Shown: piece by piece, positions 13,790 to 26,388 of the stretch
Numbering within the stretch: position 1 is the first letter of the stretch
Layout: each line of letters begins with the position of its first letter
Assembly (NCBI GenBank): GCA_021298595.1
Contig: JAJTHL010000011.1
Coordinates: 1 to 38,668, forward strand
Length of the DNA stretch: 38,668 bases
Origin: Alphaproteobacteria bacterium
GTDB taxonomy: Bacteria; Pseudomonadota; Alphaproteobacteria; Caedimonadales; UBA1908
Direction: 5' to 3'
Program-made: the position numbers and the translations under genes
Notes under the pieces: generated by a model
Seen by the model: only the letters and a program-made list of their open reading frames with translations
Databases searched by the model: none
What the model was told of the DNA's origin: nothing

Positions 13790-15866
13790 GGGCGCAGCCT
13801 CCTTTTCCTGTGCACGGCGTCTTGAGGGCTGCCATGACTGCCGCCATGGTCTCGGACGCTCGGGTTACGGGATTTGATAAATACGAGGGCGTCTCGTCAC
13901 AAACAAAGGCGTCTTTGTCCAAAGGTGCTTGCTCATCTCCAAAGGCACCCCACGGCTGAGGTCCCAGATCATGCCCCTTTACAAAGGCTGGGTTTGCTCG
14001 CACTAACCGCTCGTGTAGCTCTTTGGCGTTTTCATACCCAAGGGGAATGTCCATGCGCTTTGCAAGATCCGCAACAATGCGCCAATCTTCGCGCGCCTCA
14101 CCGGGTCCTTTGAGGGCGAGTTGCGTTTTTTGCACGCGCCCTTCGGTGTTCACAAAGTGGGCGTCTTTTTCGGTATAGGCAAGGCCCGGCAAAACGACAT
14201 CGGCCACATGGGCGCTTTTGTCCCCATGATGCCCTTGATAAATAACAAAGGTATTTTGAAGGGCGCTTGTTTCAATTTCATCGGCGCCAAGCAGATAAAC
14301 AACGTCCAGCTCTTTTCGGGCGGCAGCCTCTAAAATCTCCTTGGTCGTACGGCCTTCTTTACCCGGCACAAACCCCACATCCAGTCCGCCAACCCGTCCA
14401 GCCGCTTTATGCAGCACATTAAAACCGTTCCAGTCTTCTGTCACTAGATCACATCGCTCGGCAAGGCGGCGCGCGCGCCCCAGAATCGCCCCGCCGTCAC
14501 GGCGGATCAGCGCGTCTTGTCCCACAATGATCATGGCGCGTTCGGCCTTTTTAAGGCGTTCAAAAAGCGGATGCTTGCCGCCCAAAAGCATGTCCAAGAA
14601 AGCGGGATCATCCCCAAGGCGCTCAACGGGAAAGGTAAAATCGCGGTGCGTCGGCAGAGGGGCACCAAGATACGACACCCGAAGCTCGCCCGTGCCGTAG
14701 CGCTTGCGAAGGCGGGCCGCCAAAAGGGGCGCGTCTTCACGCACGTTTGCGCCAATAATCAAACACTCGGTCGCGGCGTCCACACCCGCCAGGGTCGAGT
14801 TAAAAATGTAGCCCGCGCGGTAGCGTGGATCAAGGGCCGCGCCGTCCTGCCGACAATCGGTATGAGCAACGCCAATCCCACGCATGAGATCGAGAAGCGC
14901 GACCTGGGCGTCCACTTCCACAAGATCTCCTGCCAGGGCGGCTATTTTTTTAGCAGGCGTTGTTTTGAGGCGCGATGCCACAAGCTCAAGGGCGTCATCC
15001 CAAGAGGCTGGTTGAAGGCGCCCCTGTGCGCCCCGAATATAAGGCGTATCAAGACGCTGGACCTTCAGCCCGTCACAGGCATGGCGTGATTTGTCAGACA
15101 GCCATTCCTCGTTAATGTCTTCATTCAGACGCGGCAAAATACGCTGAACGGCGCCGTAAGCGCAGTCCACGCGAATGGCGCTCCCCAGGGCGTCCATGAC
15201 GTCGATGGATTCGGTTTTAGTTAGCTCCCACGGGCGCCCTTTAAAGGCATAGGGCCGTGAGGTCAGCGCCCCCACAGGACACAAATCCACAATATTGCCC
15301 GAAAGCTCGGACGTCAGGGCCTGATCTAGATAGCTTTGAATTTCGGCGTTTTCGCCTCTTCCCGCCACGCCAAGCTCGGGCACGCCCGCAACGTCCTCCA
15401 GAAAACGCACGCACCGGGTACAATGAATGCAGCGGTTCATCTCGGTTTTCACAAGAGGACCTAGATGCTTTGGGGGCACCGCGCGCTTGTCTTCTTCAAA
15501 GCGGCTTGTCCCGCAACCATAGCCCATGGTGATGTCTTGGAGATCACACTCGCCGCCTTGGTCGCAGATGGGACAATCCAAAGGGTGGTTTGCCAAAAGA
15601 AATTCAAGAACACCTTTGCGGGCTTTGTCCACCATGGGGGTCTTTGTGCGGATGATCATCCCGTCATTCACAGGCATGGCGCAGCTGGCGATGGGCTTGG
15701 GCGCCCCTTGCATCTCCACAAGGCACATGCGGCAGTTACCAGCAATCTCAAGGCGCTCGTGATAGCAAAAAACAGGAATCTCGACGTCGGCCAGACGCGC
15801 TGCCTGCAACACCGTCATGCCAGCCGGGACATCGATCTCTTGATCATCAAAAGTAATTTTGACCAT
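13782..15866 (-). CDS. nuoG: NADH-quinone oxidoreductase subunit G
   Basis: The 694-residue iron-sulfur subunit belongs to the peripheral arm. The N-terminal 2Fe-2S site uses Cys34, 45, 48 and 62. The His-ligated N5 site is [14 protein letters not shown] (His94, Cys98, 101 and 107), and the N4 site is CIHCTRC with a later CPVGAL. A reduced molybdopterin-oxidoreductase-like domain follows without the extra N7 cysteine motif, as in mitochondrial and alphaproteobacterial forms. The last residues carry two Cys and a His ([10 protein letters not shown]), a small tail feature whose role I cannot assign. It starts 18 nt after the end of nuoF on the coding strand and overlaps nuoH by 8 nt. Confidence 0.96.
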
Positions 15867-15884
15867 GGTTTTCCCTTTTTCCCC

Positions 15885-17147
15885 CTAGGCCGCCTTTTTC
15901 ACGCGGCGCACAAGCTCGTGACGGAAGTGCCGTAAAAGCCCTTGCACGGGCCAGGCCGCCGCATCTCCCAGGGCGCAAATGGTACGCCCTTCAATTTGGT
16001 AAGAAATATCTTCAAGCTTATCAATGTCCGCAAGGGTCCCCTCTCCCTTGGCAAGGCGCATCAAAAGACGCCACATCCACCCCGTCCCTTCCCGGCACGG
16101 TGTACATTGGCCGCAACTTTCGTGCATATAAAACTTTGAAAGGCGCGCAATGGCATAGACAATGTCCGTCGACTTATCCATCACAATCACAGCCGCAGTA
16201 CCAAGACCGCTTTTCACAGCGCTCAGACTCGTAAAGTCCATGGTGACGGTGTCGCAAATCTCTTTGGGTAAAAGGGGCACAGACGATCCGCCAGGAATAA
16301 TGGCCAAAAGATTATCCCAGCCGCCTCTCACGCCGCCCGCATGGGTTTCAATGAGGGTTTTCAAAGGAATGCCAAGTTCTTCTTCCACGTTGCACGGTTT
16401 GTTCACGTGGCCCGAAATACAAAAGACTTTGGTGCCGGCCGAATCTTTCACGCCAAGCCCTGCAAACCAGGCGGCCCCGCGCCTCAGGATGGTCGGAACC
16501 ACAGCAAGACTTTCCACGTTGTTAATAATGGTAGGGCATCCATAAAGACCGGAAATGGCGGGAAAAGGTGGCTTCAAGCGAGGAAGCCCTTTTCCGCCCT
16601 CAATGCTTGAGAGCTGCGCCGTTTCTTCGCCGCAAATATACGCGCCTGCCCCGCGGTGCACATAAAGATCAAAATCCCATCCAGAACCGGCAGCGTTTTT
16701 CCCTAAAAGGCCTTTGACATAGGCTTCTTTGATGGCCTCTTCTAGGTGAAGGGCTTCTTGATAAAACTCGCCACGAATATAAATGTACCCCGTATGGGCA
16801 TGGATCGCGAATCCGGCAATAAGAGCGCCTTCAATGAGCTTATGGGGTTCGAAACGAAGAATGTCCCGGTCCTTACAGGTACCAGGCTCGCTTTCGTCGG
16901 CGTTCACGACCAAATAATGGGGAAATTTGCCGGGCTTTGGCATAAAGGACCATTTGCGTCCCGTGGGAAACCCTGCCCCTCCGCGTCCCCGAAGACCCGA
17001 ATCCATCATTTCCTGGATGACCTGTTCGCGCCCTCTTTCAATAAGATCCTTAGTACCAGCCCAATCACCCCGGGCAAGCGCACCGTCAAGACGCCAAGAT
17101 TTGTCCCCATAAAGGTTTGTAAAAATGCGGTCTTGATCTTTAAGCAT
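15885..17147 (-). CDS. nuoF: NADH-quinone oxidoreductase subunit F (NADH- and FMN-binding)
   Basis: NuoF oxidises NADH and passes electrons through FMN and cluster N3. It shows the Gly-rich [14 protein letters not shown] nucleotide/FMN loop, [27 protein letters not shown] and the N3 motif [13 protein letters not shown] start it at the ATG at 17147 ([14 protein letters not shown]), which has GGAGG five nt upstream and overlaps nuoE by 8 nt. A longer frame to 17174 would add nine lysine-rich residues that lie inside nuoE. The result is 420 residues, normal for the family. Confidence 0.96.
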
Positions 17148-25193: not shown

Positions 25194-25222
25194 TTGACTT
25201 TCACAAGGTACCCCAACATATT
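25194..25222 (+). promoter_or_regulatory. Promoter of the Trp-rich leader / binding-protein unit
   Basis: TTGACT at 25194-25199 and CATATT at 25217-25222 are separated by 17 nt, matching 5/6 and 4/6 of the sigma-70 consensus. The transcript would start near 25229, about 34 nt before the GTG of the leader ORF. Confidence 0.55.
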
Positions 25223-25262
25223 AAGGAAGTGTTTCAAGTGACAAAAGGAAAGGAGAGCCACG

Positions 25263-25421
25263 GTGCACACAAATTCACATACGCCCTTGGTGACCTCTTA
25301 TTCCTTTGCAGCTCCTTATGAACAAATCGGTCGATGGTGGCGATGGCGTCTTTCTTTCCAGATCCCCTTTTTGTACCGTTTTTTTAATAAGGAGTTATGC
25401 CGTGTTTTTTCGAACCTTTAA
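25263..25421 (+). CDS. Trp-rich 52-residue leader ORF (candidate attenuator peptide)
   Basis: A GTG at 25263 follows a near-ideal AAAGGAGAG (25249-25257), and the promoter above lies at the right distance. The frame runs 52 codons to TAA at 25419-25421, ending 20 nt inside the downstream gene's start. Residues 24-29 read RWWRWR, giving three Trp codons in four positions (25335-25346). The rest is rich in aromatic and basic residues and matches no family I know. Its position before a gene of the family that includes the TrpX tryptophan-binding protein suggests a regulatory leader. It could instead be a small expressed protein. Confidence 0.55.
   Translation: MHTNSHTPLVTSYSFAAPYEQIGRWWRWRLSFQIPFLYRFFNKELCRVFSNL
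25328..25385 (+). promoter_or_regulatory. Imperfect hairpin with T-run overlapping the Trp codons (candidate attenuator)
   Basis: CGGT (25328-25331) can pair with ACCG (25375-25378), directly followed by seven T (25379-25385). Inside, GATGG (25342-25346) can pair with CCA..TC (25358-25364) with a bulge, around a pyrimidine loop. The helix is weak and long. The Trp codons lie in its 5' arm, so a ribosome stalled there would disrupt it. The fold is by eye and tentative. Confidence 0.3.
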
Positions 25422-26388
25422 AAAGTTTCTCACCCCCCTATCTATTGGGACTCTGTGTGCTTTAACGCCCGCCAACGCGACCCCCCAGCCCCTTGTGGCG
25501 TTGACCCAAATCGTCCAGCACCCCTCCCTTGATGCCATTCGCCAAGGTATTGTGGACGAACTGGCGGCCGCTGGTTACACGGACAAAGAAAGTGTGTCCC
25601 TGGTCTATGATAACGCCCAAGGAAATCCCGCCCTTGCCACGCAAATTGCCCAAAAGTTCGTCGCCCTTGCCCCCACGGTGATCGTCGCAATCTCAACGCC
25701 TTCTGCCCAGACGGCCCTCACAGCCTCTAGGGACGCCGGGATTCCCATTGTCTTCGGCGCCGTCACAGATCCTGTGTCCGCAAAGCTTGTCCAGTCCCTT
25801 GAAACCACAGGGGGCAATATCACTGGCACCACGGATCTGCCGCCTTGCGCGCGCCAGCTTGCCCTGATTAAAGACGTCGTGCCAGATGTCAAGGCGGTCG
25901 GCACGGTTTACAATCCAGGCGAGGCCAACAACGTGTTTCAGCTAGGCCTTCTTAAAAAAGAGGCCGCCAAACTTGGCCTTGAGATCGTCGAGAAAACCAT
26001 TTCCCGCTCGTCCGATGTAACAAGTGCGACCAAAGCACTCATGGGCAAAGTGCAAGCCATTCTTTTGATGAACGATAATACGGTCATATCAGCTCTTGAG
26101 TCTGTACTTGTTACCAGTAACACCTACGATGTACCTGTTTTTACAAGTGACCCTGATTCGGTGAAGCGGGGTGCCCTTGCTGCCCTTGCCAATGATCAAT
26201 ATGATGTGGGGCGTGCCACCGGAAAACTTGTGGTTCGCCTTCTTCGGGGAGAAAAAGCCTCAACCATTCCCGTGAAAGAAGTGCAGGCCGAGCGGCTATA
26301 TGTTAATATCAAGGCAGCTAAGCGTCTGCGGCTCACCTTGCCCGATGGTATTGACGTTTTTGCTACTCCCCCCACTAAAACCCCATAA
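25402..26388 (+). CDS. ABC transporter substrate-binding protein (PF04392/TrpX-like)
   Basis: I start the gene at the GTG at 25402, which has AAGGAG 7 nt upstream and yields a clean signal peptide (VFFRTFKKF, a hydrophobic core, then ANA, cleaved before TPQP). The open frame extends to 25306, but those residues spoil the signal peptide. The mature part has two periplasmic-binding lobes: VALTQIVQHPSLDAIRQG, ATQIAQKFVALAPTVIVAISTPSAQ, GIPIVFGAVTDPVSAKLV and GTVYNPGEANN are typical of PF04392. The family includes TrpX of tryptophan importers. No permease or ATPase gene lies beside it, so the partners must be elsewhere or the gene is an orphan. The ligand is not determined. Confidence 0.87.
   Translation: MFFRTFKKFLTPLSIGTLCALTPANATPQPLVALTQIVQHPSLDAIRQGIVDELAAAGYTDKESVSLVYDNAQGNPALATQIAQKFVALAPTVIVAISTPSAQTALTASRDAGIPIVFGAVTDPVSAKLVQSLETTGGNITGTTDLPPCARQLALIKDVVPDVKAVGTVYNPGEANNVFQLGLLKKEAAKLGLEIVEKTISRSSDVTSATKALMGKVQAILLMNDNTVISALESVLVTSNTYDVPVFTSDPDSVKRGALAALANDQYDVGRATGKLVVRLLRGEKASTIPVKEVQAERLYVNIKAAKRLRLTLPDGIDVFATPPTKTP

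Follow-up and report, generated by a model that had tools for sequence, protein, structure and literature searches.

The gene for an orphan substrate-binding protein (SBP) of the PF04392 family, encoded within a 38,668-nt stretch of contig JAJTHL010000011.1 (the whole of which is referred to here as the window), is probably controlled by a Trp-responsive translational attenuator. The leader ORF upstream of this gene, its conserved Trp codons, a fold predicted to bury the SBP Shine-Dalgarno (SD) sequence and to release it upon a stall, the overlap of the leader with the SBP start, and the clade formed by such SBPs are all supported, by sequence, folding, and comparison with relatives, and from these we infer the ribosome stall itself and a switch in vivo. 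The genome of the window (G000; 1.72 Mb in 43 contigs) shares its GTDB order with Caedibacter and Caedimonas genomes. The features of the locus, with the basis of each, are as follows.

25194–25222, + strand: promoter-like TTGACT-N17-CATATT (consensus scan, 9/12, weak)
25250–25255, + strand: leader SD, AAGGAG (sequence)
25263–25421, + strand: leader ORF of 52 codons with a GTG start at 25263 (sequence; homologous leaders in relatives; frame stop-free past the sensor)
25308–25319, + strand: 5′ arm GCAGCTCCTTAT, anti-SD, pairing with 25387–25400 (minimum-energy fold)
25320–25386, + strand: upper, imperfect part of the hairpin including T7, the terminator proposed earlier (chance-level fold)
25335–25346, + strand: sensor codons Trp-Trp-Arg-Trp, TGG TGG CGA TGG (sequence; Trp codons in the leaders of relatives)
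25379–25385, + strand: T7 run (sequence)
25387–25400, + strand: 3′ arm ATAAGGAGTTATGC, containing the SBP SD (opening cost against shuffles)
25389–25394, + strand: SBP SD, AAGGAG, ahead of the SBP GTG start at 25402 (sequence)
25402–26388, + strand: orphan PF04392 SBP, TrpX-like, GTG start (Pfam, NCBIfam, structure match)
25419–25421, + strand: leader stop codon, TAA (sequence)

A preliminary description of this DNA had reported the leader ORF with its good ribosome site and the Trp-Trp-Arg-Trp codons, and the coordinates of these were confirmed on the sequence. As a short ORF that has its own ribosome site and contains tandem Trp codons, the leader resembles those of the trpL type, and three Trp residues within four are expected ~6e-4 times in a 52-residue frame at the Trp frequency of the window. 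The leader passes through the SBP ribosome site, overlapping the SBP start by 20 nt, a feature absent from the preliminary description. The promoter described at the same time is present, but is graded weak because the region contains three such sites where shuffled sequences would give 1.0. A search of the window with Rfam 15 at gathering thresholds returned tRNA only, with no RNA leader family matched.

Comparable leaders were sought in ~300 nt upstream of SBP relatives from this and neighbouring orders, as a ribosome site followed by a short ORF in which codons for one residue cluster. The scan rules were drawn up once the first examples were known, the Phe and Leu rules being fitted to the motifs found and those for Trp, His, and Tyr being general clusters. 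Such leaders occur in 64 of 105 upstream regions, compared with 0.4 expected from dinucleotide shuffles, the effective sample size being smaller than 105 because many of the regions come from close relatives; among control SBPs outside the group they occur in 2 of 87 (1.7 expected). Trp leaders are found in G008 (WRWWWV), G003 (WRWWEV), and G004 (WRW followed by a stop), in 16 genomes of the order of G014, mostly as SPYWRWW, in G150 in another form (RWWRWRA), and, on looser inspection, in G022, G155, and G259. The Trp leader of G006, WLVWRRW, lacks a clear ribosome site and precedes a doubtful SBP start; this Caedimonas MAG leader (L011, contig C45, ~1222–1340) has a promoter-like hexamer, TATCCT, a few bases upstream of its ATG, and may itself be leaderless. 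No such leader was found for the third SBP of G000 (L002) or for those of G007 and G009, and a DNA-pattern search of 17 genomes for additional His and Trp leaders returned known SBP leaders and a noise-like remainder. Among the matches in G001, a genome of the same genus, there is no ortholog of the window SBP, so this genome is neutral as evidence. The comparison of leaders that had been suggested as a check comes out in favour, with the ORF and its Trp codons present in related genomes, giving comparative backing to the proposal of a Trp-sensing leader ahead of a TrpX-like SBP.

Folding of the whole region yields, as its minimum-energy structure, a longer hairpin than that first described, with the pairing of GCAGCTCCTTAT and ATAAGGAGTTATGC at its base burying the SBP ribosome site. 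Opening the SBP SD in this predicted fold costs 12.3 kcal/mol, compared with 4.4 ± 1.9 kcal/mol when the upstream part is shuffled (0/60 shuffles), as expected of the SD-sequestering stem of a translational attenuator. Masking a ribosome footprint at the first Trp codon, assumed to extend 18 nt upstream and 13 nt downstream of the first A-site codon base, changes this cost by −6.5 kcal/mol (shuffles 0.2 ± 1.0, 0/60), such that a stall frees the SD in the folding simulation, partially in the window (from 12.3 to 5.8 kcal/mol) and near-optimally in Caedibacter. For the window leader, the first Trp codon ranks 12th of 38 stall positions and later Trp codons release less, with the best position lying ~8 codons upstream of the first, a gap that a queued ribosome may bridge. 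The Caedibacter leaders share the same hairpin layout (z −2.9, −3.2, and −2.2), with stall release equalled by 0/60 shuffles in each and the first Trp codon ranking first or second among 40 stall positions. Both comparison and folding, the latter run with and without the stalled ribosome as had been suggested, support two parts of the original proposal: that the Trp codons lie in the 5′ arm of a hairpin, and that a stalled ribosome releases this structure.

The preliminary description had favoured classical transcription attenuation, in which the upper hairpin and T7 form an intrinsic terminator that is broken by a stall at the Trp codons. CGGU..ACCG does close the upper hairpin immediately 5′ of T7, and a T-run follows the upper hairpin in the Caedibacter leaders (AATTTTTA), with a run of T4–T5 at the corresponding place in the f9 Trp leaders. 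However, a scan for terminator-like sites found none in the window region, against 1.5 expected, and none in L010 or L006, and the hairpin at 25320–25390, rightly described as weak, folds at −11 kcal/mol (z +0.52), with 137 of 200 shuffles folding at least as well; the strong signal is instead the burial of the SD. This weak “terminator” forms the top of the longer hairpin, with the T-run partly paired in the stem (AAA:UUU). Transcription attenuation is consequently unlikely here, and translational attenuation is the likelier mode because the longer hairpin sequestering the SBP SD is the better structure; of the attenuation layout first put forward, Trp sensing and release by a stall are retained, whilst termination is not.

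The window SBP (328 residues) matches the PF04392 profile with 290.1 bits (gathering cut-off 25.9), and its assignment to this family in the preliminary description was correct. It scores 269.9 bits against the NCBIfam TrpX equivalog NF041285, and is not filed as TrpX because the cut-off of 390 is missed; sister SBPs of other leader classes have about equal TrpX scores, such that this model does not separate the classes. The predicted structure (pLDDT 90.9) matches 6hnj, 3lkv, 6hni, and 3lft with Z of 35–38, 3lft being pneumococcal TrpX solved with L-Trp. Eleven positions are conserved among SBPs with Trp leaders and differ in at least two other leader classes, and three of these, S42, I46, and Q266 in the numbering of the window SBP, are identical in the L-Trp-bound TrpX 3lft, with VC1101 and CD0873 carrying A, T, and Y at these positions. 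These residues offer an indirect hint that Trp may be the ligand of the window SBP. Depletion of Trp from the protein was considered as a further clue to the ligand and rejected: all 22 SBPs with Trp leaders lack Trp, but six outside controls likewise lack it, so the property does not discriminate.

Both the window SBP and several of its sisters are orphan genes. No permease or ATPase gene adjoins the window SBP, with a VTT-domain protein encoded 3′ of it and a DedA-like protein, judged by eye, encoded on the opposite strand 5′ of it. A BPD_transp_2 permease gene followed by an ATPase gene lies on contig C25 of G000, and a single such permease is present per genome among nine tested, with the exception of G002, which has two; PF02653 is the family concerned, PF06541 having been tried as the permease family with no matches. 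Furthermore, no credible trpB was found in the nine genomes tested, which fits dependence on uptake whilst falling short of proof, and the bacterium is a likely Trp auxotroph.

In the proposed mechanism, transcription would start just upstream of the leader ORF. With Trp-tRNA in ample supply, ribosomes would move past the sensor, leaving the SBP ribosome site hidden in the hairpin that GCAGCTCCTTAT:ATAAGGAG..ATGC closes, with CTCCTTAT pairing with ATAAGGAG in this SD-burying structure; since the leader ORF overlaps the SBP start, run-through ribosomes would additionally cross it, and may occlude SBP initiation whenever the amino acid is plentiful. When charged tRNA-Trp is scarce, a ribosome would stall on WWRW, melting the hairpin and freeing the SBP SD, and the Trp-binding protein then made would feed the permease and ATPase encoded elsewhere in the genome. 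Run-through ribosomes would hence set the target gene to off, and a stalled ribosome to on, in such overlapping leaders.

The overlap is shared by most of these leaders. Between the sensor and the SBP start, the leader frame contains 7 stops in 1203 codons, compared with 103 in 1201 and 101 in 1177 for the other two frames, and most leaders therefore end inside the SBP gene, generally 17–41 nt past its start codon, with L010, L182, L226, L238, and L091 stopping before the SBP start. SBP starts were picked by a scoring rule, with those of L014, L031, L050, L074, and L011 uncertain and that of L188 corrected by hand. Leader ORFs that remain open through the SBP start and end shortly inside the gene would also suit a positive coupling, whereby the leader ribosome melts the hairpin when Trp is ample and ends inside the SBP gene, such that SBP translation rises with Trp, a response opposite in sign to that of the attenuation model. 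This is improbable: a likely Trp auxotroph would need the opposite response, a ribosome terminating on the leader would have to step back to reach the SBP start, and in the Caedibacter leaders a stall at the first Trp codon is the most or second most effective in freeing the SD.

Translational attenuation by amino acid supply probably extends, with other codon runs, to several sister SBPs. In G000 itself, L033 on contig C26 (SBP match at 15124–16029, minus strand) has a His leader, MRHHYHPHHRL, which is conserved as MRHHHHPHHRL at L015 (G001:C1:581267) in a genome of the same genus. Most genomes in the order of G014 encode separate SBPs bearing Trp, Leu, Phe-like, and His leaders, with the sequences MINLLRLRLTS for Leu, MAYFRFRSGN for the Phe-like class, and MHHHHHYKN and MRHHHHHHHIHK for His, and the leaders of G002 contain runs of Tyr (FYYYGRY), Phe (FFRFSSRF), and Leu (LRLRLRL). 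Phe is the weakest of these class assignments, some members of the Phe-like class having a single Phe codon. In a maximum-likelihood tree of 78 SBPs, which omits SBPs represented by an upstream region only, leader type requires 10 changes, compared with 37.5 when the labels are shuffled. Every one of the 22 Trp-leader SBPs that could be placed lies within a single clade of 27 rows (95/76), which covers several families of Caedibacter-like Alphaproteobacteria. The five remaining rows scored “none”; closer inspection shows Trp-rich frames upstream of two of them, L007 and L067. As sister SBPs carry runs for other amino acids, the leader codons may reveal the ligand of each SBP.

That the leaders are translated or conserved for some other reason, for example as a functional RNA or small peptide that does not sense Trp, is very improbable given the excess of amino-acid-specific runs over the number expected by chance and their match to SBP subfamily on the tree, even though CGATTTAGAAGCGGG of the f9 Phe-like leaders is nearly invariant, including third codon positions, in L203, L205, L209, L219, L223, L224, L080, and L083, which hints at an additional RNA constraint beyond codon sensing. 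For the group as a whole, we lean slightly towards an arrangement in which one importer is served by several orphan SBPs, many of them gated by overlapping leaders that name the ligand, with leader and specificity having diverged together after duplication; in Caedibacter-like Alphaproteobacteria the ligand-naming runs would be those of Trp, His, Leu, Phe, and Tyr.

Several known systems share parts of this arrangement. In Mycobacterium, short polycysteine ORFs sense Cys supply through ribosome speed on a run of Cys codons, and thereby control how downstream genes are translated (Canestrari et al. 2020, described in PMC9031893). The leaders presented here are alike in having a short upstream ORF with a run of codons for a single residue that would control downstream translation; however, the mycobacterial ORFs are leaderless, are restricted to Cys, and precede many operons, whereas those described here are mostly SD-led, name several amino acids, precede paralogs of one SBP family, and overlap the start of the target. 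The polycysteine attenuators reportedly act by unmasking a buried ribosome site. The trp and his leader attenuators of Proteobacteria likewise have tandem codons for the regulated amino acid and turn genes on through a starvation stall, but control biosynthetic operons, whilst here the target is an orphan transporter SBP, no terminator was found, the leader is long and overlaps its target, and no Rfam leader family matches. The anti-TRAP leader rtpLP of B. subtilis contains Trp codons, and completion of its translation represses the next gene; it lies under a T-box, ends before the SD, and has an unrelated target. Like rtpLP, the window leader is a Trp-codon leader that would act on translation of the next gene, with the predicted SD-burying hairpin of the window having no known counterpart in rtpLP.

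With respect to the target, the HisXYZ importers of Gram-positive bacteria respond to amino acid supply via T-box RNA or via HisR (PMC9413887). The TrpXYZ and HisXYZ ABC importers resemble the present system in the predicted uptake of amino acids by an SBP, a permease, and an ATPase, and differ from it in the orphan state of the SBPs, the single permease gene per genome tested (two in G002), and the codon-run leaders found here. HisX belongs to PF04392. In some leader-peptide attenuators an RBS-sequestering structure replaces the terminator (PMC9413887), and both such attenuators and codon-run sensors are already known (PMC9413887, PMC9031893); the novel elements are that paralogous orphan SBPs are marked by distinct codon runs, and that leader and target overlap. 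A search covering part of the literature found no paper on leader attenuation of substrate-binding proteins in Alphaproteobacteria, Holosporales, or Rickettsiales. If correct, this reading would make leader codons a readable ligand label for otherwise unassignable SBPs of hard-to-culture bacteria, would indicate that gene duplication can alter the ligand of a protein and its sensor together, and would show how host-dependent bacteria may balance their intake of several amino acids when a single importer serves them all.

Burial of the SD varies among the other leader classes. In the f9 Phe-like leaders, an analogous pairing of CCTATTTT with AAAATAGG covers the SD, with support varying between members, and in L209 both arms of this pairing appear changed (CCTTTT with AAAAGG, judged by eye on the alignment). 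For the His and Leu classes of family f9, as for several of its Trp leaders, the shuffle test shows no significant burial of the SD, so that control there would depend on some other step or on run-through alone; RNAalifold returned no convincing structure for the f9 His leaders. For L033 of G000, a His stall is predicted to release the SD more than in any of 60 shuffles. In the Leu leaders L198, L200–L202, L206, L217, L218, and L239, the sensor ACTTACGA is complementary to TCGTAAGT, which surrounds the stop codon of the leader itself, inside the SBP gene. An Arg codon recurs between the sensor codons of all classes (WRW, LRLRL, FRF, HRH, and GRY), a pattern resembling descent from one ancestral leader with replacement of the sensed residue. 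Additionally, the leader HSWRWRHHHSC, conserved across two species in L091 (G029:C2) and L090 (G259:C2), mixes Trp and His codons, with L091 having the largest predicted SD release among the leaders tested, at 9.3 kcal/mol.
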